From an uncultured Arenicella sp. (GTDB taxonomy: Bacteria > Pseudomonadota > Gammaproteobacteria > Arenicellales > Arenicellaceae): a DNA stretch of 64,000 nt. Both the position numbers and the translations under genes were made by a program. A model generated the notes under the pieces. It worked only from the letters and a program-made list of their open reading frames with translations, was not told the origin of the DNA and did no database searches. The stretch is from NCBI GenBank assembly GCA_937974565.1, contig CALJWL010000047.1:1-64000 (forward strand), read 5' to 3'. Within the stretch, counting starts at the first letter, position 1, and every line of letters begins with the position of its first letter. Shown here one piece after another: positions 12,658 to 23,691 of this stretch.

Positions 12658-14004
12658 CTAGTCAATACAAAATAGTGCGTCGTTAATTGTGTTTTCAACC
12701 CATTCTTGCTGGCCGCTTTCCGCGGCAGGATAACCCGACTCAACAGCATGATTAAAAAGATCATTTAAGCGTAATTTGCCCGCTTCAAAGTCCGCCCCTT
12801 TGCCTTGTCTAAAACTTTCATAACGGCGTTTTTTAAAAGCGTCAAGCTTACCATCACGGATCAGTTTATCGGCAACAAGTAAACCACGAGCAAAGCTGTC
12901 CATACCACCGATATGTGCAATAAAAAAGTCTGACATATTAGTGGACTCTCGCCGTAGTTTGGCATCAAAGTTTAAGCCGCCATTAGTAAACCCACCGTTT
13001 TCCAGAACCACAATCATAGCCTGAACACAATCGTACAGGTCGGTGGGGAACTGATCGGTGTCCCAACCATTTTGGTAATCACCACGATTCGCGTCTATGG
13101 AACCCAATAAATCAGCATCGGCCGCCATTCTTAGATCGTGTGCAAAGGTGTGTCCAGCCAAGGTGGCGTGATTAGCCTCAATATTCAGTTTAAAGTCTTT
13201 ATCTAAACCATGATGCCTTAAAAAACCGATTACGGTTTGCGCATCAAAATCGTACTGATGCTTAGTCGGTTCCATCGGCTTGGGTTCAATCAAAAAGTCG
13301 CCTTTGAAGCCAATGCTACGGCCGTAGTCTCTGGCCATGGTTAAGAATCGAGCCATGTGTTCCAATTCTTGCTTGGTGTCGGTATTAAACAAACAAGAGT
13401 AACCTTCGCGACCACCCCAAAATACGTAGTTTTCACCCCCCAATTCAACCGTGGCATCAAGCGCCATTTTCACTTGCGCGCCCGCGTGTGCAACCACATT
13501 AAAATCAGGGTTAGTACTGGCACCATTCATGTAACGAGGGTTAGAAAAGACATTGGCGGTGCCCCAGAGTAACTTAATGCCTGTTTCTTTCTGCATTTCT
13601 TTAGCGCGATCAACCATGGCTTGCAGATTTGCTTGACTGTCAGAAACACCGCGGCCCTCTGGAGCCATGTCAATGTCGTGAAAACAGTAATAAGGCACAT
13701 TAAGTTTGCTGGTTAGTTCAAAAGCGGCATCCATTTTCTGATTAGCCACTTGCAAAGGGCTGTCGCCATTTAACCAAGCATGCTGGCGTGTTTCGCTGCC
13801 AAAAGGATCCGCCCCACCCGAACAAAATGTGTGCCAGTAGCACACAGCAAAACGTAAATGATCTTCCATGCGTTTTCCTGACACCAAACGATCAGGGTCG
13901 TACGCTTTATACGCCAGTGGGTTGTCGGATTGCTTACCCTCGAATTCAATACGAGAGATATTGGGGAAATATTCAGTGTCTCCAATGTAAACGGGACGGG
14001 ACAT
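12658..14004 (-). CDS. xylA: Xylose isomerase
   Basis: Converts D-xylose to D-xylulose in the cytoplasm with two divalent metal ions. The 448-aa protein is a class II isomerase with the family's usual length. The catalytic His is in FHDID (H109). Metal ligands lie in [19 protein letters not shown] and [23 protein letters not shown] lies eight bases before the ATG. It sits 34 bases after xylB and is followed by the sugar porter, giving the order xylB-xylA-porter-regulator-GH3. Confidence 0.97.
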
Positions 14005-14038
14005 AATTACTCCATTACGTTGTGTTGTTTGGGCTTTA

Positions 14039-15541
14039 CTAGCTAAAGAAAGGCCGCATGTGTCGTTGTAAATTTAAATAGTTTTGGTAGATGCTTTGAT
14101 AAGCTTCAACCAAACTAGGATTGGGGGTGTATTCAATTTGATCATAGTTTGCCAAAGCGGAATCCGTATACGTTGCATCAATGATGCCGTGATTGTCCAC
14201 CAAACTGCATGCTTGAAGAGCGGCCCCAAATGCCGCACCTTCGTTATTTTTGTACACAGAAGTTTTTACGCCAAACAAATCCGCCACCATTTGACACCAT
14301 TGAGGGCTGTTCGCGCCACCGCCAGTCAAGGTAATTTGAGTGGGGTTAATATTGTGGGCTTGTAGCTCATTAAAACCATAATAAAGCCCAAAGGTCACTC
14401 CTTCAACCGAGGCTCGTATCAAATTTGTCTGCGTGAGGTTCTGCGAGTTTATACCGGCTAAGACACCTTCTGAGTTTGGTAAGTTTGGTACTCTTTCACC
14501 GTTCAAATAGGCAAGCATCGACAAACCTTCGGCGCCAACCGGAGACAGTTTTAATGAGGCATCGATTTCTTCAACGTCATACCCCAAAAGGTGTCGTACG
14601 CTTTCGGTGGTGGTGGTGCAAGCCATGGTACAAACCAATGGCAACCAACCGCCATTAGAGCTGCAAAAGTTAGCCAGTTCACCGTTGCTATTATCGATAG
14701 CATGCTCTGAAAAAGCAAAAATTGTACCCGAGGTTCCTAAACTGAGGGTCATTCTCCCCAAATTGGTTGTATTCGTGCCGATGGCGGCCATCATGTTGTC
14801 GCCACCACCGATGGCCACTTGCACATCATTTGAAAGGCCTAAACGTTGGGCCACATCAGGAATTAAGGTGCCAATAGACCGGTTCTCTAAGCTCAACGAG
14901 GGCAAACAAGACGCCAAGTGTCCGCTGTCATCAATGGCATTGATCAAGGCGTTGCTCCATTCTCGCTTGCTGACATCCAATAGGCCGGTGCCAGATGCAT
15001 CACCCATTTCCATACAACGCTCTCCGGTGAGCCAGAAATTCAAATAATCATGCGGTAGCAAAACGGTGCGCATTGCTTGAAAAATGTCCGGTGCATTGTC
15101 TTTTAATTGCTTAAGTTTCGGTGCGGTGTAACCCGGCATCATCGGATTACCCACCAAACGAATGCACTCTTCTTGACCGCCAAGCGCTTGCATAATGTCT
15201 AAACATTGCTCAGAACTCGTGGTGTCACACCAGAGCTTAACCGGTGCAATCACATCTCCTTCTTTATTCAAAACAACTAAACCGTGTTGCTGGCCGGAAA
15301 CAGCCATGGAACGCACGTTATTAAGGTAGTGTTCTGGCACCTGCTTCACTACCTCAATAAAGGCGTTAATCCAATCCACCGCATTTTGTTCAGCCAAGCC
15401 GTTACCGTCTTGCGTGATATCCAGTGGCACTGAAAAAGTACCGCAAGTCGCTTTAGTTTTAATATCCAGTACCAAAGCTTTTATACTTTGAGTGCCTAGA
15501 TCAATGCCTAAAGTATAGTGTGTAACGTGCTTATCGAGCAT
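14039..15541 (-). CDS. xylB: Xylulokinase
   Basis: FGGY-family kinase (500 aa) that phosphorylates D-xylulose to xylulose 5-phosphate for the pentose phosphate pathway. It shows the N-terminal phosphate loop [13 protein letters not shown], the catalytic-Asp segment [11 protein letters not shown], the ATP-binding [10 protein letters not shown] and the adenosine-site [20 protein letters not shown]. It is the first gene of the leftward xylose operon. The ATG at 15541 has only a weak ribosome site. Confidence 0.95.
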
Positions 15542-15748: not shown

Positions 15749-16249
15749 CTAACGATTATGGTCGGTTTTTTTTCGACTCAACAGTGCTTTTTGAAAGCGT
15801 TGATGAATACTGTCCGACACCTCTTTCAACTCAGTTATAGACACATTAAGAGCGTGGTCACCGATTGACGGTGTTGAGTTACCGATCTCCTTACCGGCCA
15901 ATTCGTCGGTCGAATTAAGCACTTTTGTCACTTCTTCAGTTAACTTACGCCTTATCTCAGCTTTATTATTTGGATCTACATCGTATCGTTCACCAAGTTC
16001 AAACAACTCTTGTTCGTTAAATGACACACCAATGCGGGCACGTTTTGGTGGGCTGGACGGCATTCCGACGATTTCACGAATCATTGAACTCGGCGCCTTG
16101 TGTTCACGAGCCGCTAATGTACGCAATAACGTATCGGCCGCATCCGGAAAGTCCAAGCTGATTTGAACCTTACGAATTTGTGCCGACTCGCGCTCCCACT
16201 TTGGGTTTTTATCAGTTAAATTTTTGCTCTTATTAGTGTGATTTGACAT
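15749..16249 (-). CDS. Hypothetical protein, last gene of the polyamine/PspA cluster
   Basis: A soluble 166-aa protein I do not recognise. The N-terminal 25 residues are polar. Then come segments resembling a ribbon-helix-helix arrangement (VQISLDFPDAADTLLRTLAAREHKAPSSMIREIV) and a second similar block (ARIGVSFNEQELFELGERY...AEIRRKLTEEV), followed by a polar C-terminal helix. It begins five bases after the preceding stop codon, so it is translationally linked to the cluster. A DNA-binding or adaptor role is possible, but it is a guess. Confidence 0.75.
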   Translation of the reverse strand: MSNHTNKSKNLTDKNPKWERESAQIRKVQISLDFPDAADTLLRTLAAREHKAPSSMIREIVGMPSSPPKRARIGVSFNEQELFELGERYDVDPNNKAEIRRKLTEEVTKVLNSTDELAGKEIGNSTPSIGDHALNVSITELKEVSDSIHQRFQKALLSRKKTDHNR

Positions 16250-16254
16250 TGTAT

Positions 16255-16887
16255 TTAGCCATTAGGCAGAAAAAAGTCGACGGCGGTTGCCGATACCGTT
16301 ACTTCTGCAAAAAACTCAGTCTCACCATCTTCCCACACTTCGATGGAAATCGAATGATGATTAGAATCGCCCTCCAACTCATGGTAGGTAAACGGCATGG
16401 ATTCATCTTCATACTTAGAAATGCCGCGATTTCTACGGTCTTCGTTGTAATAGTACGCCTGTGCTTCACACAAAGTTCGGGTGTATCTAGAGCAAGTCCA
16501 CTGGGCACGCCGAGGATCCACCGCAACCTCACGCAACCGCAAACCAGCGCCCTCACACTCTGGGTCAAACACCGCTGCCAGCTCATCACCATCAAATATC
16601 TCAATAATTTCAGGATGACGAATTTTGTGTGAAAACGTAATAGAGTCGTGATCTGCATCGTAAGTCGCGTTGACTTTTAAACCCGATGCATGGCTTAAAG
16701 CAAAGTCGGACACAAGCTCACCCGCGTAATCGTAAGTATTCACAGTCTCAACCGACAACGTTTCGCCACTAAGACCTTCTGGTAAAATTTCACGGAATTT
16801 TAGCGTCACTAAGTCGCCTTGATGCAACTGATCAAAACGCTCAACGGTTCGCGTCGACTCTGATGATTTTTTTCTTTTAAAAAACAT
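16255..16887 (-). CDS. Hypothetical protein in the PspA/polyamine cluster
   Basis: An acidic, soluble 210-aa protein with no signal peptide. It begins MFFKRKKS, then a beta-rich domain (about residues 17-95; GDLVTLKFREILPEGLSGETLSV) and a second beta-rich half ending near residue 205. GGAG precedes the ATG. Position suggests equivalence to YjfK (DUF2491) of the E. coli yjfIJKL group or to the DUF4178 proteins often found near such genes. I cannot confirm either family from the residues. Confidence 0.75.
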   Translation of the reverse strand: MFFKRKKSSESTRTVERFDQLHQGDLVTLKFREILPEGLSGETLSVETVNTYDYAGELVSDFALSHASGLKVNATYDADHDSITFSHKIRHPEIIEIFDGDELAAVFDPECEGAGLRLREVAVDPRRAQWTCSRYTRTLCEAQAYYYNEDRRNRGISKYEDESMPFTYHELEGDSNHHSISIEVWEDGETEFFAEVTVSATAVDFFLPNG

Positions 16888-16981
16888 AATTACTCCAAAA
16901 TTAATCAGGTTTACCCGTTAAACTCAAATGAAAACCAACGGTCAACGGCAAATGATTTAATCATTCGTCTGACGGCTAACT

Positions 16982-17416
16982 CTAAGCAGTCAATTTTTCT
17001 GAACGATAAAAAGCACTGACCATCAGTGTTGAAATAGGCAAAGTGGCGTATTTCATCGCTAACTCAGGCAAAAACCGGAATAGATGATCGTGTAAGATTT
17101 GAGGCCACACTAAGTGATAGTTCCAATATATAAAGGACGGGGCTAGAGCCACTAAAATCAACGTCACGATTTTTTGTCGGTTCAGCTTTAACAAATAATA
17201 GGCCAGCGGCGCCTGTAAGAAACAATAAATAACAAGGTCATGAGCTTTGTTAGCCCTCTGAAACCATTTCTCAGTAACACAACAATCAAACAAAGCACCA
17301 CTAATTGGGCTGATAAGCGGTAAAAAACCTCCCACCATCAACACCAAATAGTGATAAGCAAACCCCATGATCGCCACCAGTAAACAGTGATATATTAAGT
17401 TGTCGCGTTTAACCAT
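16982..17416 (-). CDS. Small membrane protein in the PspA/polyamine cluster
   Basis: A 144-aa hydrophobic protein from the ATG at 17416; an in-frame TTG at 17428 is an alternative start. It has four probable membrane segments (about residues 8-30, 60-75, 82-105 and 118-138) and a Cys pair (DCCV) in the first extracellular or cytoplasmic loop. No family is recognised. It lies between pspA-like and the 210-aa gene, in the same direction. Confidence 0.7.
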   Translation of the reverse strand: MVKRDNLIYHCLLVAIMGFAYHYLVLMVGGFLPLISPISGALFDCCVTEKWFQRANKAHDLVIYCFLQAPLAYYLLKLNRQKIVTLILVALAPSFIYWNYHLVWPQILHDHLFRFLPELAMKYATLPISTLMVSAFYRSEKLTA

Positions 17417-17537
17417 GAGTGACGCCAAAATCAGTTTTAATGCCTTGAATTAAAGATAACGATTCACACGAACTCAATAATCGAGTTCATGTGAAATGGC
17501 AACGTAAAACCTTACTCAGCCTACTTACGTTAAGTAA

Positions 17538-18218
17538 CTACTTTTTTAAGCTCGCCAAGATATCGTCAGCACTGGTGCCTGTTGACGACAAACCCGCATC
17601 GGCCAGCTCAGCATCCAAATCCGCACCTTTCTCAAGATCAGACAGCCATTTATCGGCATCCATACGATTTTCCGCTTCTTCTTGACGCGATTTAACTCGT
17701 TCCATTGCGCGCTGAACACGCTTAGCACCTGAGTCATTGGTCGGCATGGCCGCTGCTACTGCAGTTTGGGTCTTTTGTACTTGTTCATACGTTTTCAGCT
17801 TTTCAAGTTCGATCTTGTTCTTCTCGATACTGGCTTCGCGTTCTTTCACAATTTTGTATAAACGGTCTGTCTGAGCGGTTAACTCTTCACCTTGCGCATC
17901 AACATCTGTTTTTTCATCAGTGAGTTCAGCAATTTTAATCGCCACTTTTCGTGCCAAATCTTCATTCCCTTGCTCTAAAGCAGCTTTGGCCTTTGCAGTG
18001 TATTCGGCAATGTCTTCTGATAATTCGATGCTTTTTTTATCAAACTTGATCGCTTGCGCCTTTAAATTTCGAATATTGACGGTTGCCTTAGCAATGCCTT
18101 CTTTTGCCTCGCGAATTTCTTGTTCTAAGATCGTCATGGCTTGGCTATCAACAATGGCCTCACCCGCTTTATTTACGTTGCCTTTAATGGCTGCAAACAG
18201 GTCTTTTAAAATACTCAT
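17538..18218 (-). CDS. PspA/IM30 family protein (YjfJ-like)
   Basis: Peripheral inner-membrane scaffold of the ESCRT-III-like PspA/Vipp1 superfamily (226 aa). It is almost wholly helical with long coiled coils (about residues 25-150), opening with an amphipathic N-terminal helix MSILKDLFAAIKGNVNKAG and showing the family's EQEIREAKEGIAKA pattern. The C-terminal 60 residues are acidic and Ala-rich. AGGAG precedes the ATG. It lies next to a YjfI-like gene as in E. coli yjfIJ, which distinguishes it from stress-inducible PspA of the pspABC operon. The role is probably membrane maintenance together with the aminopropyltransferase and DUF350 proteins. Confidence 0.9.
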   Translation of the reverse strand: MSILKDLFAAIKGNVNKAGEAIVDSQAMTILEQEIREAKEGIAKATVNIRNLKAQAIKFDKKSIELSEDIAEYTAKAKAALEQGNEDLARKVAIKIAELTDEKTDVDAQGEELTAQTDRLYKIVKEREASIEKNKIELEKLKTYEQVQKTQTAVAAAMPTNDSGAKRVQRAMERVKSRQEEAENRMDADKWLSDLEKGADLDAELADAGLSSTGTSADDILASLKK

Positions 18219-18267
18219 AAAATACTCCTAAGTAATAAATTGAATGGATTAAAGAAGCAATACTGTG

Positions 18268-18678
18268 TTACTGAATGTAATCAGCAACGGCTTCGAGAAC
18301 GTCGTTGTAGTTATCAATTTGCACCTCAATTTCGTGCAATAGGTTGGTCATCGTCGTTTCAATGGCCATCGCACCAAACAAGACATAACGGTTATCTTGA
18401 ATACCGACAGAAGATAAAGCCATCGGTAATGAGATGGTTAACAAACCCCGATTCAACTCAGCACGCAGATCCTCGCGAACGCTGGCTTCATCAAACAAAG
18501 GGGTAATGGTAAGAATTTGCGTATCAGTTGCCACCACAATCACCACCGCATCGGGGGTGTCGCTGTTTTCAATGGTGACGGTTTCCGTTTGAGCATTAAA
18601 CTCAGCCGAAAAAGTATTGCCACCTGGCACGTTACCGCGATTAATTTGATAGGCTATTTCTTGTAATGTCTCGTTCAT
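18268..18678 (-). CDS. YjfI-like protein (DUF2170)
   Basis: A soluble 136-aa protein. The pattern (ATDTQILTITPLFDEASVREDLRAELNRGLLTISLPMALSSVGIQDNRYVLFGAM, then an acidic helix ending IEVQIDNYNDVLEAVADYI) matches what I know of the DUF2170/YjfI family, which is regularly encoded directly upstream of a PspA-like protein. Biochemical function is unknown. It precedes the PspA-like gene by 49 bases. Confidence 0.8.
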   Translation of the reverse strand: MNETLQEIAYQINRGNVPGGNTFSAEFNAQTETVTIENSDTPDAVVIVVATDTQILTITPLFDEASVREDLRAELNRGLLTISLPMALSSVGIQDNRYVLFGAMAIETTMTNLLHEIEVQIDNYNDVLEAVADYIQ

Positions 18679-18751
18679 AGTTAATTCCGTATAGTTTGAA
18701 TAATGTCAAATGGTTAAAAACAGGTTTTTATCAACAGATTCGTAATTGTTG

Positions 18752-20491
18752 TTAACGTATTTGGGTTATAAATACGCCTTCTTGTTTGCGCCAGCCTTCT
18801 GAGTGATAGGCGTATAACACTGGCGAGTTAAGCCGGTTTGCCTTAATTTTCTCAAGCTGATTAAAAAACGGTTTGGGGAACGTGAACGCTCCTAAAATAA
18901 AGTCATTATTGATTACGTCGCTTTGTAGCGCTTTGGTTTTGTTCCTGATTCGGCTTAAGGGGTCAGCACCGATCTTACTCGCGATAGTCCAACCCCACTC
19001 ACCAAAGGACGGCACATTAGCGTGGTATTGCTGCGCACTTAATCCGGCCTCTGAAATCGTTTTGCCTATTGATAAAAAGGCGTTTTTGCTGTGATATGGA
19101 CTGGTGGATTGAACCACCATGGCCCCATCACCATTAAGCAAATTAGATAACTGGCGATAAAAATACACGCTGTATAACTTGTTTAAATCTGGATGGCTTG
19201 GGTCGGGCAGATCGACAATAATGGTGTCATACGCTTGCCGCTCAGCCACCAAATTTTCAACATAAAGAAACGCATCCTCGTTTATCACCGATACTCGCGA
19301 GTCATTTAAGGCGCCCGCATTAAGTTCAGTCAAACGCTTGCTCAGCCAAAAGTCGACCTCATCATCTCGCCCTGAAAATAAGCGTGTCATGGCCGGGTCT
19401 AAGTCAATCACCGTGACCGATTTAGGTTGGTAACGTAATATGTCGCGCACGGCCAAACCATCTCCACCACCGACGACCAGAACTTTTTCATTGCGCGCTG
19501 ATGCCAGCATTGCCGGCGAAACCAACATGGCATGATAAATATCTTCATCCGCACTAGAGAATTGTAAGCGCCCATTGATATACAAACTTAGTATTGGCTG
19601 CCCCACTCCGCCAATAATACGTTCAGTAACCACAATATTCTGAAAGCGTGTGTTGTTTGAATAGATCACCTTGTCTTTGTAAAGCATGCTGTTCATTGAA
19701 TTAATCCAAGTATTACCTTTGAGCAATACGGCAACCAATAACATCCCTACCATCATTTTCATTAGCACGAGTAAGGCTACCCAGCGAATCTTGTGCCAAA
19801 ATTTTGCAATAAAGATCGCGCCTAACAGTAAATTTAACAGTGCGGTCGCGGCCGCTGAGATGATTATCGGCTGTGACAAACACACGGTGACCCAAATCGC
19901 GGCACCAACACCACCACCGATGTAGTCCATGCCATAGACGGTGCCCGCATTGTTTTCTACTCGCTCATAGAGGTCTTCACGAATGCGCGCGATAAACGGA
20001 ATTTCCATCCCGATAAAGAACCCTAGCACGGCTCCTAGCAAGTAAGGAGTGACTTTGGATACTTCACGTAAGGCATGAACCGGTCCACCATCCGCAATAA
20101 CACTGGGGTCTAATCCAAAGGTTTGTTGAAGTTCATTTGGCAGCACAAAGGCATATGAGACCACGGCCGCCATGAGTAAAATCGAGGTGCCACCAATGAC
20201 CGAGATAACGGCTTCTAACCAAGCAAAGCCAGTGTAAGGGTTATCAATAGTTCGAGCGTAGAATGCGCCCACACCCATGGACGCGACCATAACGCCAATC
20301 ATGCCGTAAACCGCCACATCCACACTTCCCAGCACCCTACCAGCGTAATGCGCTAACAAATACTCATAGATAATGCCGCACGCCGCACCAACGGCCATGA
20401 TTCCTAAGAGCATGGCATCTTTACCAGACAATCCAGACTTAGCGTTAATGTCTGTGGCAAGATTTGCAGTGGTGGTAGGTTTTGAACTCAT
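18752..20491 (-). CDS. Membrane-fused polyamine aminopropyltransferase (spermidine synthase family)
   Basis: Predicted to transfer an aminopropyl group from decarboxylated AdoMet to an amine acceptor. The 579-aa protein has seven or eight N-terminal membrane segments (about residues 25-270) and a cytoplasmic spermidine-synthase domain (about 275-520) with VLVVGGGDGLAVRDIL (AdoMet site), VTVIDLDPAM and the catalytic DLPDPSHP. Spermidine synthases are usually soluble and about 290 aa; the membrane-fused form suggests an acceptor at the membrane or coupling to transport. The methyl-donor precursor enzyme (AdoMet decarboxylase) is encoded by the first gene of the same cluster. The acceptor is not known. 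Confidence 0.9.
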   Translation of the reverse strand: MSSKPTTTANLATDINAKSGLSGKDAMLLGIMAVGAACGIIYEYLLAHYAGRVLGSVDVAVYGMIGVMVASMGVGAFYARTIDNPYTGFAWLEAVISVIGGTSILLMAAVVSYAFVLPNELQQTFGLDPSVIADGGPVHALREVSKVTPYLLGAVLGFFIGMEIPFIARIREDLYERVENNAGTVYGMDYIGGGVGAAIWVTVCLSQPIIISAAATALLNLLLGAIFIAKFWHKIRWVALLVLMKMMVGMLLVAVLLKGNTWINSMNSMLYKDKVIYSNNTRFQNIVVTERIIGGVGQPILSLYINGRLQFSSADEDIYHAMLVSPAMLASARNEKVLVVGGGDGLAVRDILRYQPKSVTVIDLDPAMTRLFSGRDDEVDFWLSKRLTELNAGALNDSRVSVINEDAFLYVENLVAERQAYDTIIVDLPDPSHPDLNKLYSVYFYRQLSNLLNGDGAMVVQSTSPYHSKNAFLSIGKTISEAGLSAQQYHANVPSFGEWGWTIASKIGADPLSRIRNKTKALQSDVINNDFILGAFTFPKPFFNQLEKIKANRLNSPVLYAYHSEGWRKQEGVFITQIR

Positions 20492-20535
20492 GGAAACAAA
20501 TACCAGTTCTATTAAATTGTTCTGGATAAGCCGAA

Positions 20536-21438
20536 TTAAACTAAATAGGCTAAGGCCATGAACGCCAACGCAATGAACAACGCTGCTTCAACCGCCGCCA
20601 CGCCCACATTTTGCTGGTGATCAACCTCTTCGATCACGTTAACTTTGAACAGCACCAAGGGTAGAAACAGTCGATAAGAAACCCACACGATGGTGGCAAG
20701 ACCAAAGGCGTAAACTGCCCAATAAAACACAGACCAAAGCAAATTAAGCTCAGCCGCATCCACTAAAAAACTGGTAGTTGTAATAGCAATACCCGTGGCT
20801 ATCAGCTGCCCCGCATAACGTAATGCAATCGCGACATTGCCGGTTTGAATTGCCGCTTGCCACGAATCGGCCGCATCAATATTGTTAGCCACATTTTCTT
20901 TATTGCGAGACCGATAAACCGCCATACGCAGCACGGCCACCGCCGCCAACACCAATTGTGAAACAACAAACACAGCTACCACTGGAATCAGGCCCACTAA
21001 GCCTTCACTGTCCACCCACATCAATGTCTTTTTTGCTACTAATCCAACAACCGCCATATTGGCCGCCACAATGATTGCAGCGCTCATATTTCCGTTTCGA
21101 ATCTCGGCGGCTAGGCTGATGTTTCTTATGACAATTTTGTCTTGAATTAACACGCCTAAAATTAGCAGCACCGAGCCTAGCGCTCCGTACATTAATAAGC
21201 TGGTAATTTCAGCAATGTGACTTGGCAGTGCCTCACCTGATTGCACACCAGTAAGCATAAAAATCAACCCCAACACGCCGCCAGCAATACTTACCCCAAA
21301 CGCAAAATTGTCTTTACTATCCAGTTCACTTTTTGCGTCAACGCCTAAGTGTTTAGCAAGTGCGTAACGAACCGGCACAACAAACAGCAGGCAGACAACA
21401 ATGTTAATAACGAGCGTAATAATTTGATCAATGGTCAT
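20536..21438 (-). CDS. Tandem DUF350 membrane protein (YjfL-like)
   Basis: A 300-aa polytopic membrane protein with about eight membrane segments, made of two DUF350-like halves. The first has DSKDNFAFGVSIAGGVLGLIFML and the second AIQTGNVAIALRYAGQLIATGIAI at corresponding positions. E. coli YjfL is a single copy of about 130 aa, so this is a duplication-fusion. Function is unknown; DUF350 proteins recur next to PspA-like and spermidine-synthase genes. GGGGAA precedes the ATG, nine bases after the lipoprotein gene. Confidence 0.85.
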   Translation of the reverse strand: MTIDQIITLVINIVVCLLFVVPVRYALAKHLGVDAKSELDSKDNFAFGVSIAGGVLGLIFMLTGVQSGEALPSHIAEITSLLMYGALGSVLLILGVLIQDKIVIRNISLAAEIRNGNMSAAIIVAANMAVVGLVAKKTLMWVDSEGLVGLIPVVAVFVVSQLVLAAVAVLRMAVYRSRNKENVANNIDAADSWQAAIQTGNVAIALRYAGQLIATGIAITTTSFLVDAAELNLLWSVFYWAVYAFGLATIVWVSYRLFLPLVLFKVNVIEEVDHQQNVGVAAVEAALFIALAFMALAYLV

Positions 21439-21447
21439 AATGTTCCC

Positions 21448-22416
21448 CTATTTACCGCCAAAACTGGATCTACGACTGCCTGATGAGCGAGAGTTGTAAC
21501 CGCTTTTGTATGACTTACTGCTGCTCGAATTCGACTTAGCGTAAGCGCTCTTAAAGGGTTTGGGTTTTTGAATTTGCGAACTTCTCTTCGTATAAGGTTG
21601 CCCTTTAACACTGGTGTTACGTGCATAAGGACTCTTAAATGATTTGCCTTTCGCGGTATACGACTTTTTTGTCTTAGCTAAGGCATCCGCTTGATTGGTA
21701 CGCGCTTTCGGTGAACTGTAAGCCCCTCGATTACGATCATGATAGTAAGATGGCCGTCGATTCGAAGACCAACTGTCGTAATAAACTGGGCGATTGCCAA
21801 ACAGTGATGAGAAAAAGGCGTATTGTCCATACCAGTGCCAAAAAGACGCACCGGTTGACGATGTGCGCCACTCACCGTAGTTACTGTTACCAACGTACTC
21901 AGACCCAATTGCACCACCTTCAGCCTTACTGTCTTCAAATTCGATTTCACGCATTTTGGGCAAGGCACCTTCGGTAAAATCAGCAAGCATATTGATGGCA
22001 TCCACCAGCATCGCATCGTAGTTACTGATTGCGGTGCGGATATTTAACAACTCTAAGTTTATTGCTGAACCTTCGGCTGTTGTTTGAATTTGCTTTTGCG
22101 CATCCGATTCAGCATCCGACAATCGTTGTTTAATCGATGAATACGTTGGCCCCCGCTGGGTCCCTTCGGACGCCAACGTGTCAATAATTTGCCTGAATTC
22201 GGGCTTTTTATTTCGCGCAACCTTGGCGTAAGCCGGCAACAATGATGCGTTTCGCAACGTGCCATTATTGATCTGTGAGTTCAACGTATCAAACGCACTT
22301 TGAGCCGCACTTAAGTTCGCAGAAATCTCAGCTTTAATTTCTTTTGTTGGATCTGAGCCACAAGCCGATATAGCCATGGCTAGCAGAGAAATGATCACAA
22401 TTTTTGTGAGTCTCAT
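21448..22416 (-). CDS. Lipoprotein of the polyamine/PspA cluster
   Basis: A 322-aa predicted lipoprotein. The signal peptide ends in a lipobox (AISAC, Cys 19) followed by GSD. Residues 25-135 form helices that resemble a coiled-coil bundle. The last 110 residues are rich in Ser, Tyr, Lys and Arg (for example SYKSGYNSRSSGSRRS), a flexible, strongly basic tail that could bind anionic envelope polymers. AAGG precedes the ATG. I do not recognise the family. The position between speD and the DUF350 gene ties it to the cluster. Confidence 0.8.
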   Translation of the reverse strand: MRLTKIVIISLLAMAISACGSDPTKEIKAEISANLSAAQSAFDTLNSQINNGTLRNASLLPAYAKVARNKKPEFRQIIDTLASEGTQRGPTYSSIKQRLSDAESDAQKQIQTTAEGSAINLELLNIRTAISNYDAMLVDAINMLADFTEGALPKMREIEFEDSKAEGGAIGSEYVGNSNYGEWRTSSTGASFWHWYGQYAFFSSLFGNRPVYYDSWSSNRRPSYYHDRNRGAYSSPKARTNQADALAKTKKSYTAKGKSFKSPYARNTSVKGQPYTKRSSQIQKPKPFKSAYAKSNSSSSKSYKSGYNSRSSGSRRSSFGGK

Positions 22417-22532
22417 TTATGTACCTTCATGTGAGTTCTTAGGTTTATTGTTAATCTGTATTTTTTTGAGTTTTGCCATGGGCAATGAACTTGATGCTTT
22501 ATTTGGCTTACTGACCTAAAATCAATATTCAC

Positions 22533-23006
22533 TCAAGAATCAGCGTGCTGTAAGTTTTGCTGATTTATGCCTCGAAGAGCTTCGGCATTATAATGACTCT
22601 TGTTCCCAGGCATTGCTCTTTCAATAATTTGACAAAAAAAACGCCCCTGCCGGTCCGCCGAACGCAATACATCAATTGCGGCTTCAACGGGCTCCATTGC
22701 GCTATGTTTATCGCTGCACACAAATATATCTATTGCCGCGTAGTTGTCTTCAGGCCACGTGTGTATCGAAATGTGGCTCTCAGCCAACATCAACACACCG
22801 GTATTACCCAGACCATCACCAAAATCATGAAAATGAGCAACTAATACCCTCGCGTTAGCCGCGGTGGCTGCCTCTCGCAATAAAGCTTCTAACTGAACAC
22901 AATCTAAATGGCTGATTAAACCAGCATGCTCAACAATGGCATGAAACCCTTTTGCTCTGAATTTCGCTGGATTGGGGCTGCTCGCCCTTATTACATTTTT
23001 CTGCAA
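22533..23006 (-). CDS. speD: S-adenosylmethionine decarboxylase proenzyme (SpeH type)
   Basis: Makes decarboxylated AdoMet, the aminopropyl donor for polyamine synthesis. The 157-aa protein is of the short bacterial class. It contains ESHISIHTWPE, in which S77 is the predicted self-cleavage site that becomes the pyruvoyl group, the nearby catalytic His residues, and a Cys in IFVCSDK. No ATG fits the reading frame upstream of the conserved GFHAIVEHAG; TTG at 23006 is the only plausible start and its ribosome site is weak. The transcript leader is very short (about 27 bases) because the promoter at 23040-23068 is close. It is the first gene of a nine-gene leftward cluster and supplies the membrane aminopropyltransferase. 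Confidence 0.93.
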   Translation of the reverse strand: MQKNVIRASSPNPAKFRAKGFHAIVEHAGLISHLDCVQLEALLREAATAANARVLVAHFHDFGDGLGNTGVLMLAESHISIHTWPEDNYAAIDIFVCSDKHSAMEPVEAAIDVLRSADRQGRFFCQIIERAMPGNKSHYNAEALRGINQQNLQHADS

Positions 23007-23036
23007 GAGAGTGTCGTCGTTGTTTAGTTGGTGAGA

Positions 23037-23068
23037 GACATATTATGTCAAGTGTCATAATATGTCAA
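23037..23068 (-). promoter_or_regulatory. Near-consensus sigma70 promoter overlapped by a perfect inverted repeat
   Basis: On the minus strand TTGACA (23063-23068) and TAATAT (23040-23045) are separated by exactly 17 bases, an almost ideal sigma70 promoter. The inverted repeat GACATATTATG / CATAATATGTC (23037-23047 and 23056-23066, 8-bp spacer) covers both boxes. A dimeric repressor bound here would block polymerase. It drives speD and probably the whole downstream cluster. Confidence 0.8.
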
Positions 23069-23139: not shown

Positions 23140-23691
23140 TCACTTACGACGTTGGACAAACGCGTAGACTATCCCCGCCACTACGCCACTAAAATGCCCT
23201 GCCCAACTAATGCCGTACTGAAACTTGAACAGTGCAAATATCATCGCCCCGTAAATAAGAAATGTGACGAACGCAATAACCACGTCCTTGATCTGTTTTC
23301 TCAGAAACCCGTTGGTGATCAAAAAAGACCAATAAGCAAACACCAGCCCCGATGCACCGATAACAACCCCAGACGAACTAAGCAGCCATGTCAGCCCGCC
23401 TGAAATTACAATTAGTATTCCCGTCCGGCGGCCAAACTGTGATGGGTCAAGGGCGCTAACAAAACTGCCCATGATCAATAAAGGCACTATATTTGATAAA
23501 AGGTGACTTAAGTTTGCGTGTAAAAATGGAGAAAAAAATACGCCTGTCAGCCCTGATATTGAGCGCGGCCTTAATCCTAACCACGTAAAATTACCGGGCA
23601 ATACCACTTCAATAACAAATACGGCCAATATGATTATTGCCAATAGGACTGGCTGACTGATCACTCTTTTTAGCTTATTACGATAGGCCAT
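23140..23691 (-). CDS. Rhomboid-family intramembrane serine protease
   Basis: Cleaves membrane proteins within or near the bilayer. The 183-aa protein has six predicted membrane segments. The catalytic dyad is visible as GASG (S114) and AGHFSG (H166), and the oxyanion-side HANLSHLLSN motif is present. It lies upstream of the speD promoter in the same direction but separated by the strong promoter, so it is probably an independent unit. Confidence 0.9.
   Translation of the reverse strand: MAYRNKLKRVISQPVLLAIIILAVFVIEVVLPGNFTWLGLRPRSISGLTGVFFSPFLHANLSHLLSNIVPLLIMGSFVSALDPSQFGRRTGILIVISGGLTWLLSSSGVVIGASGLVFAYWSFLITNGFLRKQIKDVVIAFVTFLIYGAMIFALFKFQYGISWAGHFSGVVAGIVYAFVQRRK

Follow-up and report, generated by a model that had tools for sequence, protein, structure and literature searches.

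In a 64,000-nucleotide stretch of DNA from an uncultured Arenicella sp. (the window; GenBank assembly GCA_937974565.1, contig CALJWL010000047.1, positions 1 to 64,000 of the forward strand), a cluster of nine genes encodes, among others, an S-adenosylmethionine (AdoMet) decarboxylase (SpeD), a lipoprotein, and an aminopropyltransferase (SpeE) domain fused to seven transmembrane (TM) helices. The cluster is a member of a known operon class, here with SpeD built in. Based on sequence comparison and structure models, it is proposed, with a confidence somewhat short of even, that the SpeE domain works in the periplasm, where, with decarboxylated AdoMet (dcAdoMet) as the donor, it would aminopropylate the C-terminal lysine of the partner protein encoded beside it. 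The evidence favors this reading ahead of a cell wall anchor, another periplasmic acceptor, or ordinary spermidine synthesis. The first-pass annotation of this DNA had left the acceptor open; a candidate can now be named, the invariant C-terminal lysine of the neighboring exported protein, with other acceptors retained as rivals.

The nine ORFs span 15749-23006 with intergenic gaps of 5-116 bases, which bears out the earlier description of nine genes running in one direction with short gaps. The gene calls made at that time, including the tandem DUF350, the basic lipoprotein tail, and the membrane-fused transferase, also hold by Pfam/NCBIfam and by sequence. In the order of transcription, the genes (and the two parts of the fusion) are:

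22533..23006, minus strand: speD, short bacterial-type AdoMet decarboxylase with a TTG start (AdoMet_dc, E 1.3e-22, Pfam/NCBIfam)
21448..22416, minus strand: lipoprotein whose basic Ser/Gly/Tyr tail terminates in GGK, the last Gly-Lys codons at 21451-21456 (lipobox by eye and pattern)
20536..21438, minus strand: tandem DUF350 membrane protein, YjfL-like (DUF350, 1.6e-31, three stretches)
18752..20491, minus strand: membrane-fused aminopropyltransferase, 579 amino acids (NCBIfam PRK03612, 576 bits versus a cut-off of 472)
19688-20491, minus strand: residues 1-268 of the fusion, half-MFS domain (major facilitator superfamily) and seventh helix
18755-19687, minus strand: residues 269-579 of the fusion, SpeE domain
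18268..18678, minus strand: YjfI/BacA-like DUF2170 protein (DUF2170/YjfI, 1.3e-19)
17538..18218, minus strand: PspA/YjfJ-like protein (PspA_IM30, 5e-34)
16982..17428, minus strand: 148-amino-acid membrane protein (ORF; no family over cut-off)
16255..16887, minus strand: 210-amino-acid operon protein, its family beta-rich by the account of Ravi 2024 (no family over cut-off)
15749..16249, minus strand: 166-amino-acid ribbon-helix-helix (RHH)-like protein (two RHH-like segments by eye)

A scan for the fusion gave 235 relatives, and the 80 best loci (L005-L084) were mapped; some of these contigs stop inside the cluster, and 7/80 stretches show no lipoprotein. A class survey (203 genomes) and a phylum survey (398 genomes; flanks taken for 40 matches over the cut-off) are each a sample, and 5 of 13 plasmid records were examined for a second fusion subfamily. 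For this subfamily (∼500-550 amino acids where the start is clear), 36 loci were examined, 4 from the class, 27 from the phylum, and 5 from plasmids (L184 being assigned by score); a PspA profile match lies nearby in 5 of the 27 phylum loci. Active site and topology were compared in 117 fusions (81 PspA-linked, plus 4 and 32 others), with 20 soluble SpeE proteins of the class as the reference. In the 80 mapped loci, the fusion (80), YjfI (78), PspA (76), DUF350 (76), the 210-amino-acid family (76), the lipoprotein (73), and the RHH-like protein (70) recur in a common core order, so that their association, for which a genome search had been suggested at first pass, is indeed non-random. The 148-amino-acid membrane gene was seen in none of the 80 loci. 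SpeD as an obligate cluster gene was rejected because 24/80 clusters show it, some contigs ending early. A phage collection searched at 1e-30 gave no match, which leaves carriage by phages unsupported.

The lipoprotein ends in exactly Gly-Lys in every one of the 74 cases (73 loci and the window), whereas the residues before vary (RRGK, SGGK, RSGK, GGGK). As background, of 1795 other ORFs of at least 100 amino acids, mechanically listed from these loci, 8 end in GK and 210 in K. Eleven PspA-linked loci of the phylum survey that have a lipoprotein also all end in GK; they partly overlap the 80 and were therefore kept out of the 74. Since all four Gly codons and both Lys codons are used, the constraint appears to act on the protein rather than on the DNA, and the idea that the GK end derives from the ribosome site of the next gene was rejected because of the same codon variation.

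In the second subfamily, an exported or membrane neighbor ending in Lys was found in 30 of the 36 loci (3/4 class, 22/27 phylum, 5/5 plasmid). These partners are mostly unrelated to the window lipoprotein and to one another (phmmer, E 1e-3, a grouping that leaves out the kinship of the L160 partner). They comprise lipoproteins ending in SRGK (L087 and L091), eight proteins of 78-100 amino acids ending in GGK or SGK, six of ∼50-90 amino acids ending in RVK or RIK, six of DUF4178 type (family assigned by eye) that carry a TM close to the C-terminus and have tails resembling GGSHK, and a pair ending in THK and SHK (L162 and L205); further partners are singletons. For small partners in GC-rich loci (e.g., L203 and L205), the reading frames were chosen by eye. 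Because lysine was in mind when partners were chosen, ORFs were also scored blind to their last residue in the 27 phylum loci, by the presence of a TM, 15-320 residues beyond it, and a G/S/Y share of 30% or more over the final 20 residues. Of the same-strand ORFs near the fusion that were selected in this way, 21/42 end in K versus 6/88 in the background (p = 5e-8, uncorrected for kinship); on the opposite strand, the share was 3/18 (p = 0.02).

Several lines of evidence indicate that the SpeE domain probably faces the periplasm. AlphaFold2 models of the fusion and of its membrane part alone (mean predicted local distance difference test, 88 and 89) contain seven TM helices, the first six of which (residues 12-235) resemble one MFS transporter half (Foldseek, first 1000 chains; best Z 17.7, with a root mean square deviation of 3.5 over 188 residues). 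The membrane domain does not have the two-half, 12-helix MFS architecture and, with seven TM helices in the model, was not classed as a transporter. MFS halves start and finish in the cytosol, and a seventh helix following such a half would therefore place the SpeE domain in the periplasm. Consistent with the positive-inside rule, Lys plus Arg of loops 2-3, 4-5, and 6-7 exceeds that of loops 1-2, 3-4, and 5-6 in 85/85 fusions (means 8.4 versus 1.9) and in 32/32 further ones (means 8.2 versus 0.2), 117/117 overall. The SpeE domain is free of Cys in 109/117 fusions (80/81, 1/4, and 28/32), whereas the 20 soluble SpeE proteins have a mean of 4.3 Cys, with one having none. Moreover, a flavoprotein oxidase with a twin-arginine-like start (by eye), often with a lipobox, follows the fusion at L088, L153-L156, L158, L161, L162, and L203; both second-subfamily oxidases run on Pfam matched NAD_binding_8 over the cut-off, and one matched Amino_oxidase. 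Such an enzyme, once exported, could have the aminopropylated product as its substrate. At first pass, the transferase had been placed in the membrane beside a PspA scaffold; the predicted topology puts its catalytic domain on the periplasmic side, away from the cytosolic PspA.

The catalytic center of the fusions is intact and their acceptor pocket is altered. Asp344, Asp365, Asp406, Asp427, and Asp430, which make up the dcAdoMet site and the catalytic Asp, are invariant in all 117 fusions. The equivalent of Glu463 is present in 0/117 fusions compared with 16/20 soluble SpeE proteins, Tyr496 (20/20 soluble) is replaced by Phe in 117/117, Thr429 is replaced by Pro in all 117 but in 0/20 soluble proteins, and a basic residue at position 438 occurs in 116/117 fusions and 1/20 soluble proteins. 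By its sequence, such a pocket fits an amino acid–like acceptor better than a diamine, and the carboxylate of a terminal lysine could find its counterpart in the base at 438, a gatekeeper-loop residue. The view that losing Glu321 characterizes the fusions in general was rejected, as Glu is found at this position in 3/81 of the PspA-linked fusions and is kept in 4/4 and 32/32 elsewhere.

The E. coli–type relatives of the cluster offer a parallel. Among 369 class genomes, 11 contain DUF1190 lipoproteins, some with reading frames chosen by eye, and the downstream gene, where read, looks like an ATP-grasp spermidine ligase (by eye). Seven of the 11 end in GG (including L192 and L195-L200), the others in GS, GS, AG, and LA, and none in K. 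ATP-grasp ligases such as glutathionylspermidine synthetase act on the carboxylate of a C-terminal Gly. The terminal residue of the partner thus appears suited to the reaction of the neighboring enzyme, which is the boldest inference drawn here.

Taken together, a pathway can be proposed in which SpeD, judged by its conserved active-site residues, would produce dcAdoMet in the cytosol. By-eye inspection of the SpeD protein shows no export signal; its Ser77, His82, and Cys97, which by motif are taken to be the pyruvoyl and catalytic residues, are conserved in 25/25 aligned sequences (24 loci and the window). The half-MFS domain, going by its fold, would pass dcAdoMet across the inner membrane, and the periplasm-facing SpeE domain would then put aminopropyl groups on its partner's C-terminal lysine, at the side-chain amine, the partner here being the GGK lipoprotein. 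The product would be an N-(3-aminopropyl)lysine end on a strongly basic tail, in effect a tethered polyamine-like cation, which should grip anionic lipid, lipopolysaccharide, or a wall polymer. PspA and YjfI would act at the cytosolic face and DUF350 within the membrane, and the RHH-like protein, given the conservation and co-occurrence described below, may repress the operon via a palindrome over the speD promoter. The operon as a whole would thus be a regulated envelope-modification system.

A number of points weigh against lysine aminopropylation. The donor must cross the membrane, yet we know of no dcAdoMet transport, and a C-terminal lysine has another periplasmic use, that of Braun lipoprotein. 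In G143, a genome of the same genus, a second-subfamily fusion neighbors an SRGK lipoprotein (locus L087), and SpeD has no match. The partners of the second subfamily were chosen partly by their end, 2 of the 30 Lys-ending ones (L184 and L207) group with the window lipoprotein, and no Lys-ending partner was found in 6 of the 36 loci (L088, L153, L155, L157, L158, and L191). The retention of Asp430, finally, leaves room for a diamine acceptor: by motif, its position is that of the residue which, according to PMC4356361, holds the distal amine of putrescine in Plasmodium falciparum spermidine synthase.

Among the rival explanations, the terminal lysine could be a Braun-type anchor whose amine is joined to peptidoglycan by an L,D-transpeptidase, the transferase modifying something else or capping the lysine to control anchoring. 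E. coli Lpp ends in Lys and is linked to the wall through this residue. In the 63 of 74 lipoproteins with a pattern-found lipobox, position +2 is G, S, T, or A and never D, which suits the outer membrane and, together with the C-terminal lysine, gives the window lipoprotein class Braun-like features; an L,D-transpeptidase-like gene (named by eye) also lies near 19/80 loci, on the other strand. However, many second-subfamily partners have 50-100 amino acids and an N-terminal membrane helix and would gain little from wall linkage, the lysine end travels with the aminopropyltransferase across unrelated partner groups, and the Gly-rich-tailed DUF1190 lipoproteins, whose genes neighbor an ATP-grasp ligase in E. 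coli, do not share it. Wall anchoring is considered unlikely. The same low probability is given to a periplasmic SpeE domain that aminopropylates a small molecule, a lipid head group (e.g., phosphatidylethanolamine), or an imported polyamine, with the tail protein serving as a cofactor, dock, or carrier. This would agree with the conserved Asp430 and with the MFS-half fold and membrane position, and MprF unites a membrane flippase and a lipid-modifying enzyme in one chain; it leaves the terminal lysine in unrelated partners unexplained.

That a cytosolic SpeE domain makes spermidine or a related polyamine beside PspA is the least probable of these alternatives, ranking below the two just weighed. 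Although SpeD lies within the window operon and the catalytic residues are intact, the uniform positive-inside pattern, the MFS-half fold, and the loss of Cys all argue for the other side of the membrane, and the fusion reportedly fails to complement a speE deletion (Li 2019, Biochem J). Furthermore, the genome of the window (97.9% complete) contains one SpeD, no PF01276 decarboxylase, and a single PF02784 match that reads as LysA-like, which leaves no putrescine-forming decarboxylase of either family; the nspC model matches the LysA-like protein alone, far below the cut-off. Endogenous putrescine as the acceptor is weakened because no route to it was found (PF02784, PF01276, and nspC, with pyruvoyl-type arginine decarboxylase and agmatinase outside the search). 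No separate canonical SpeE is among the PF01564 matches listed for this genome (two of three); the listed match besides the fusion is MFS-SpeE-like (L004, G000:C1:56255-59710). It covers two overlapping ORFs of 521 and 334 amino acids, a longer MFS-SpeE-like protein that is perhaps frameshifted. In 12 genomes with the fusion, PF02675 matched somewhere in 11, and class 2 AdoMet decarboxylase (PF01536) in none, which is uninformative, as the control also matched nowhere.

The following sequence features may bear on the regulation of the operon:

23068-23063 (TTGACA) and 23045-23040 (TAATAT), minus strand: promoter-like TTGACA-17-TAATAT before speD, 10/12 consensus matches
23037-23066, minus strand: 13-bp palindrome GACATAWTATGTC in two copies 17 bp apart over the speD −35/−10 region, one exact and one with a single mismatch
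17463..17495, minus strand: terminator-like 15-bp stem between pspA and the 148-amino-acid gene (by sequence)

Promoter-like sites show no excess in this region (13 against 18.9 expected). The 30-bp double site occurred in none of 100 window shuffles, and no second match with up to three mismatches was found in the genome of the window, where the double site rather than the single 13-bp palindrome was searched. The related loci contain 129 exact copies of GACATAWTATGTC. Each of these falls in the stretch from the fusion to the yjfI start, in the 400 bases before the first gene, or barely inside those genes; the spacing before yjfI is mostly 35-36 or 17-18 bp (45/56 listed intervals). With up to one mismatch, the palindrome is present in 56 of the 70 loci with the RHH-like gene and absent from 14, for which reason a role as a universal operator was rejected. 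It is found in 0/4 complete loci without that gene but in 3/6 cut-off loci in which the gene was not seen, and the p value for the co-occurrence (0.003) overstates it, since the loci are related. From this conservation and co-occurrence, we infer that the RHH-like protein is a candidate repressor acting at the palindrome. The terminator-like stem makes the membership of the last three genes in a putative single transcript doubtful.

The neighborhood itself is not new, since Ravi 2024 and, reportedly, Li 2019 describe it. AdoMet decarboxylase, the fusion of MFS and spermidine synthase, and DUF350 are said to have been found together by Li 2019, reportedly in thousands of genomes, with a polyamine-independent role proposed and the acceptor left open; what is added here is a candidate acceptor and a compartment. 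An operon of a CesT/Tir-PspA dyad, a 7TM-fused spermidine synthase–like protein, DUF350, a lipoprotein, and a beta-rich protein, in some cases closing with an RHH gene, is set out in Ravi 2024 (PMC11237479), so that the first-pass remark that comparative genomics had noted such neighborhoods was correct; YjfI-type DUF2170 is placed there in the CesT/Tir superfamily. The window resembles class 2 of that work in having DUF2170 beside pspA, the 7TM-SpeE fusion, DUF350, and a lipoprotein (the Ctha_1186 lipoprotein domain of Ravi had no model here, and the lipobox was called by eye and pattern instead). The RHH-like and 210-amino-acid genes keep their position and family in 70/80 and 76/80 loci but gave no profile match: relatives of the 210-amino-acid protein are named DUF4178 in Ravi 2024 (PMC11237479), Pfam gave no DUF4178 match for the window protein and three relatives, and Pfam yields no family over the cut-off for the 166-amino-acid protein and five relatives. 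The lipoprotein and the 148-amino-acid protein likewise gave nothing over the cut-off in the Pfam/NCBIfam scan. The window differs from class 2 by the leading SpeD, the inserted 148-amino-acid membrane gene, and the lack of a K+ channel. Section 19 of Ravi 2024 (PMC11237479) contains no periplasmic topology, C-terminal lysine, or operator, and the word "periplasm" appears nowhere in the paper. In literature titles and the starts of abstracts, with few subscription journals covered, nothing was found on aminopropylation of a C-terminal lysine or on a periplasmic SpeE domain.

Other known systems share parts of the cluster. In E. coli, the genes lie in the order yjfIJKLM-yjfC and ygiBC. This arrangement, the third class in the account given by Ravi 2024 (PMC11237479), has YjfI, PspA, DUF350, and a lipoprotein in common with the window, and an ATP-grasp spermidine ligase replaces SpeE. 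In Pseudomonas aeruginosa, a DUF2170-PspA pair belongs to the six-gene bac operon linked to biofilm formation (PMC10948618); the pair is shared, although the BacA model matches the window YjfI weakly (27 bits, cut-off 300), and the bac operon differs, as far as its description in PMC10948618 extends, by a proposed sigma-54 site and the lack of a SpeE homologue. The SpeE domain has the fold of the Thermus thermophilus triamine/agmatine aminopropyltransferase (1uir/3anx; Z 34.0 over 280 residues), solved as a 309-313-residue chain without a membrane domain, the comparison being one of overall fold. From the classical phage shock protein system (PspABC-F), the window differs in that PspB, PspC, and PspF are absent among the ten scanned proteins (the nine genes and a rhomboid, the rest of the genome being outside the search), and the PspA equivalog model scores 14 bits versus a cut-off of 243.

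The rhomboid gene lies just upstream of speD:

23140..23691, minus strand: rhomboid-family gene (Pfam/NCBIfam; rhombosortase TIGR03902 weak, 19.8 bits versus a cut-off of 84)

In 53 of the 80 loci, a K+ channel gene with a ligand-sensing domain (read by eye) follows the RHH-like gene (50) or the 210-amino-acid gene (3). The window operon lacks this gene, and two Ion_trans_2 matches lie elsewhere in the genome. Because relatives of the rhomboid gene directly follow the K+ channel gene in 15/80 loci, a rhomboid processing protease may be part of the system. Directly downstream of the operon, on the same strand, the window carries xylose isomerase– and xylulokinase-like genes (12658-15541; named by eye).

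Compared with the published accounts, the predicted periplasmic topology, the Lys-ending partners, the altered acceptor pocket, and the recurring palindrome are new. For the membrane-fused SpeE family, they point to a single candidate acceptor residue in a single compartment, with a single expected mass shift. A broader view, held slightly more tentatively than the proposal for the window, is that of a bacterial periplasmic modification in which an outward-facing aminopropyltransferase would modify the C-terminal lysine of dedicated exported tail proteins, several unrelated partner groups sharing only a flexible tail and this lysine, and in which a sister ATP-grasp system would ligate spermidine onto Gly ends, with both systems, encoded in PspA-linked operons, equipping the envelope with tethered polyamines. 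The modified ends (..RGK and ..GGK) would be lost as short tryptic peptides, which may be why they have been overlooked. If true, this would be a new extracytoplasmic protein modification, and it would account for the presence of polyamine enzymes in PspA/DUF350 operons and tie these to the ATP-grasp operons of E. coli.

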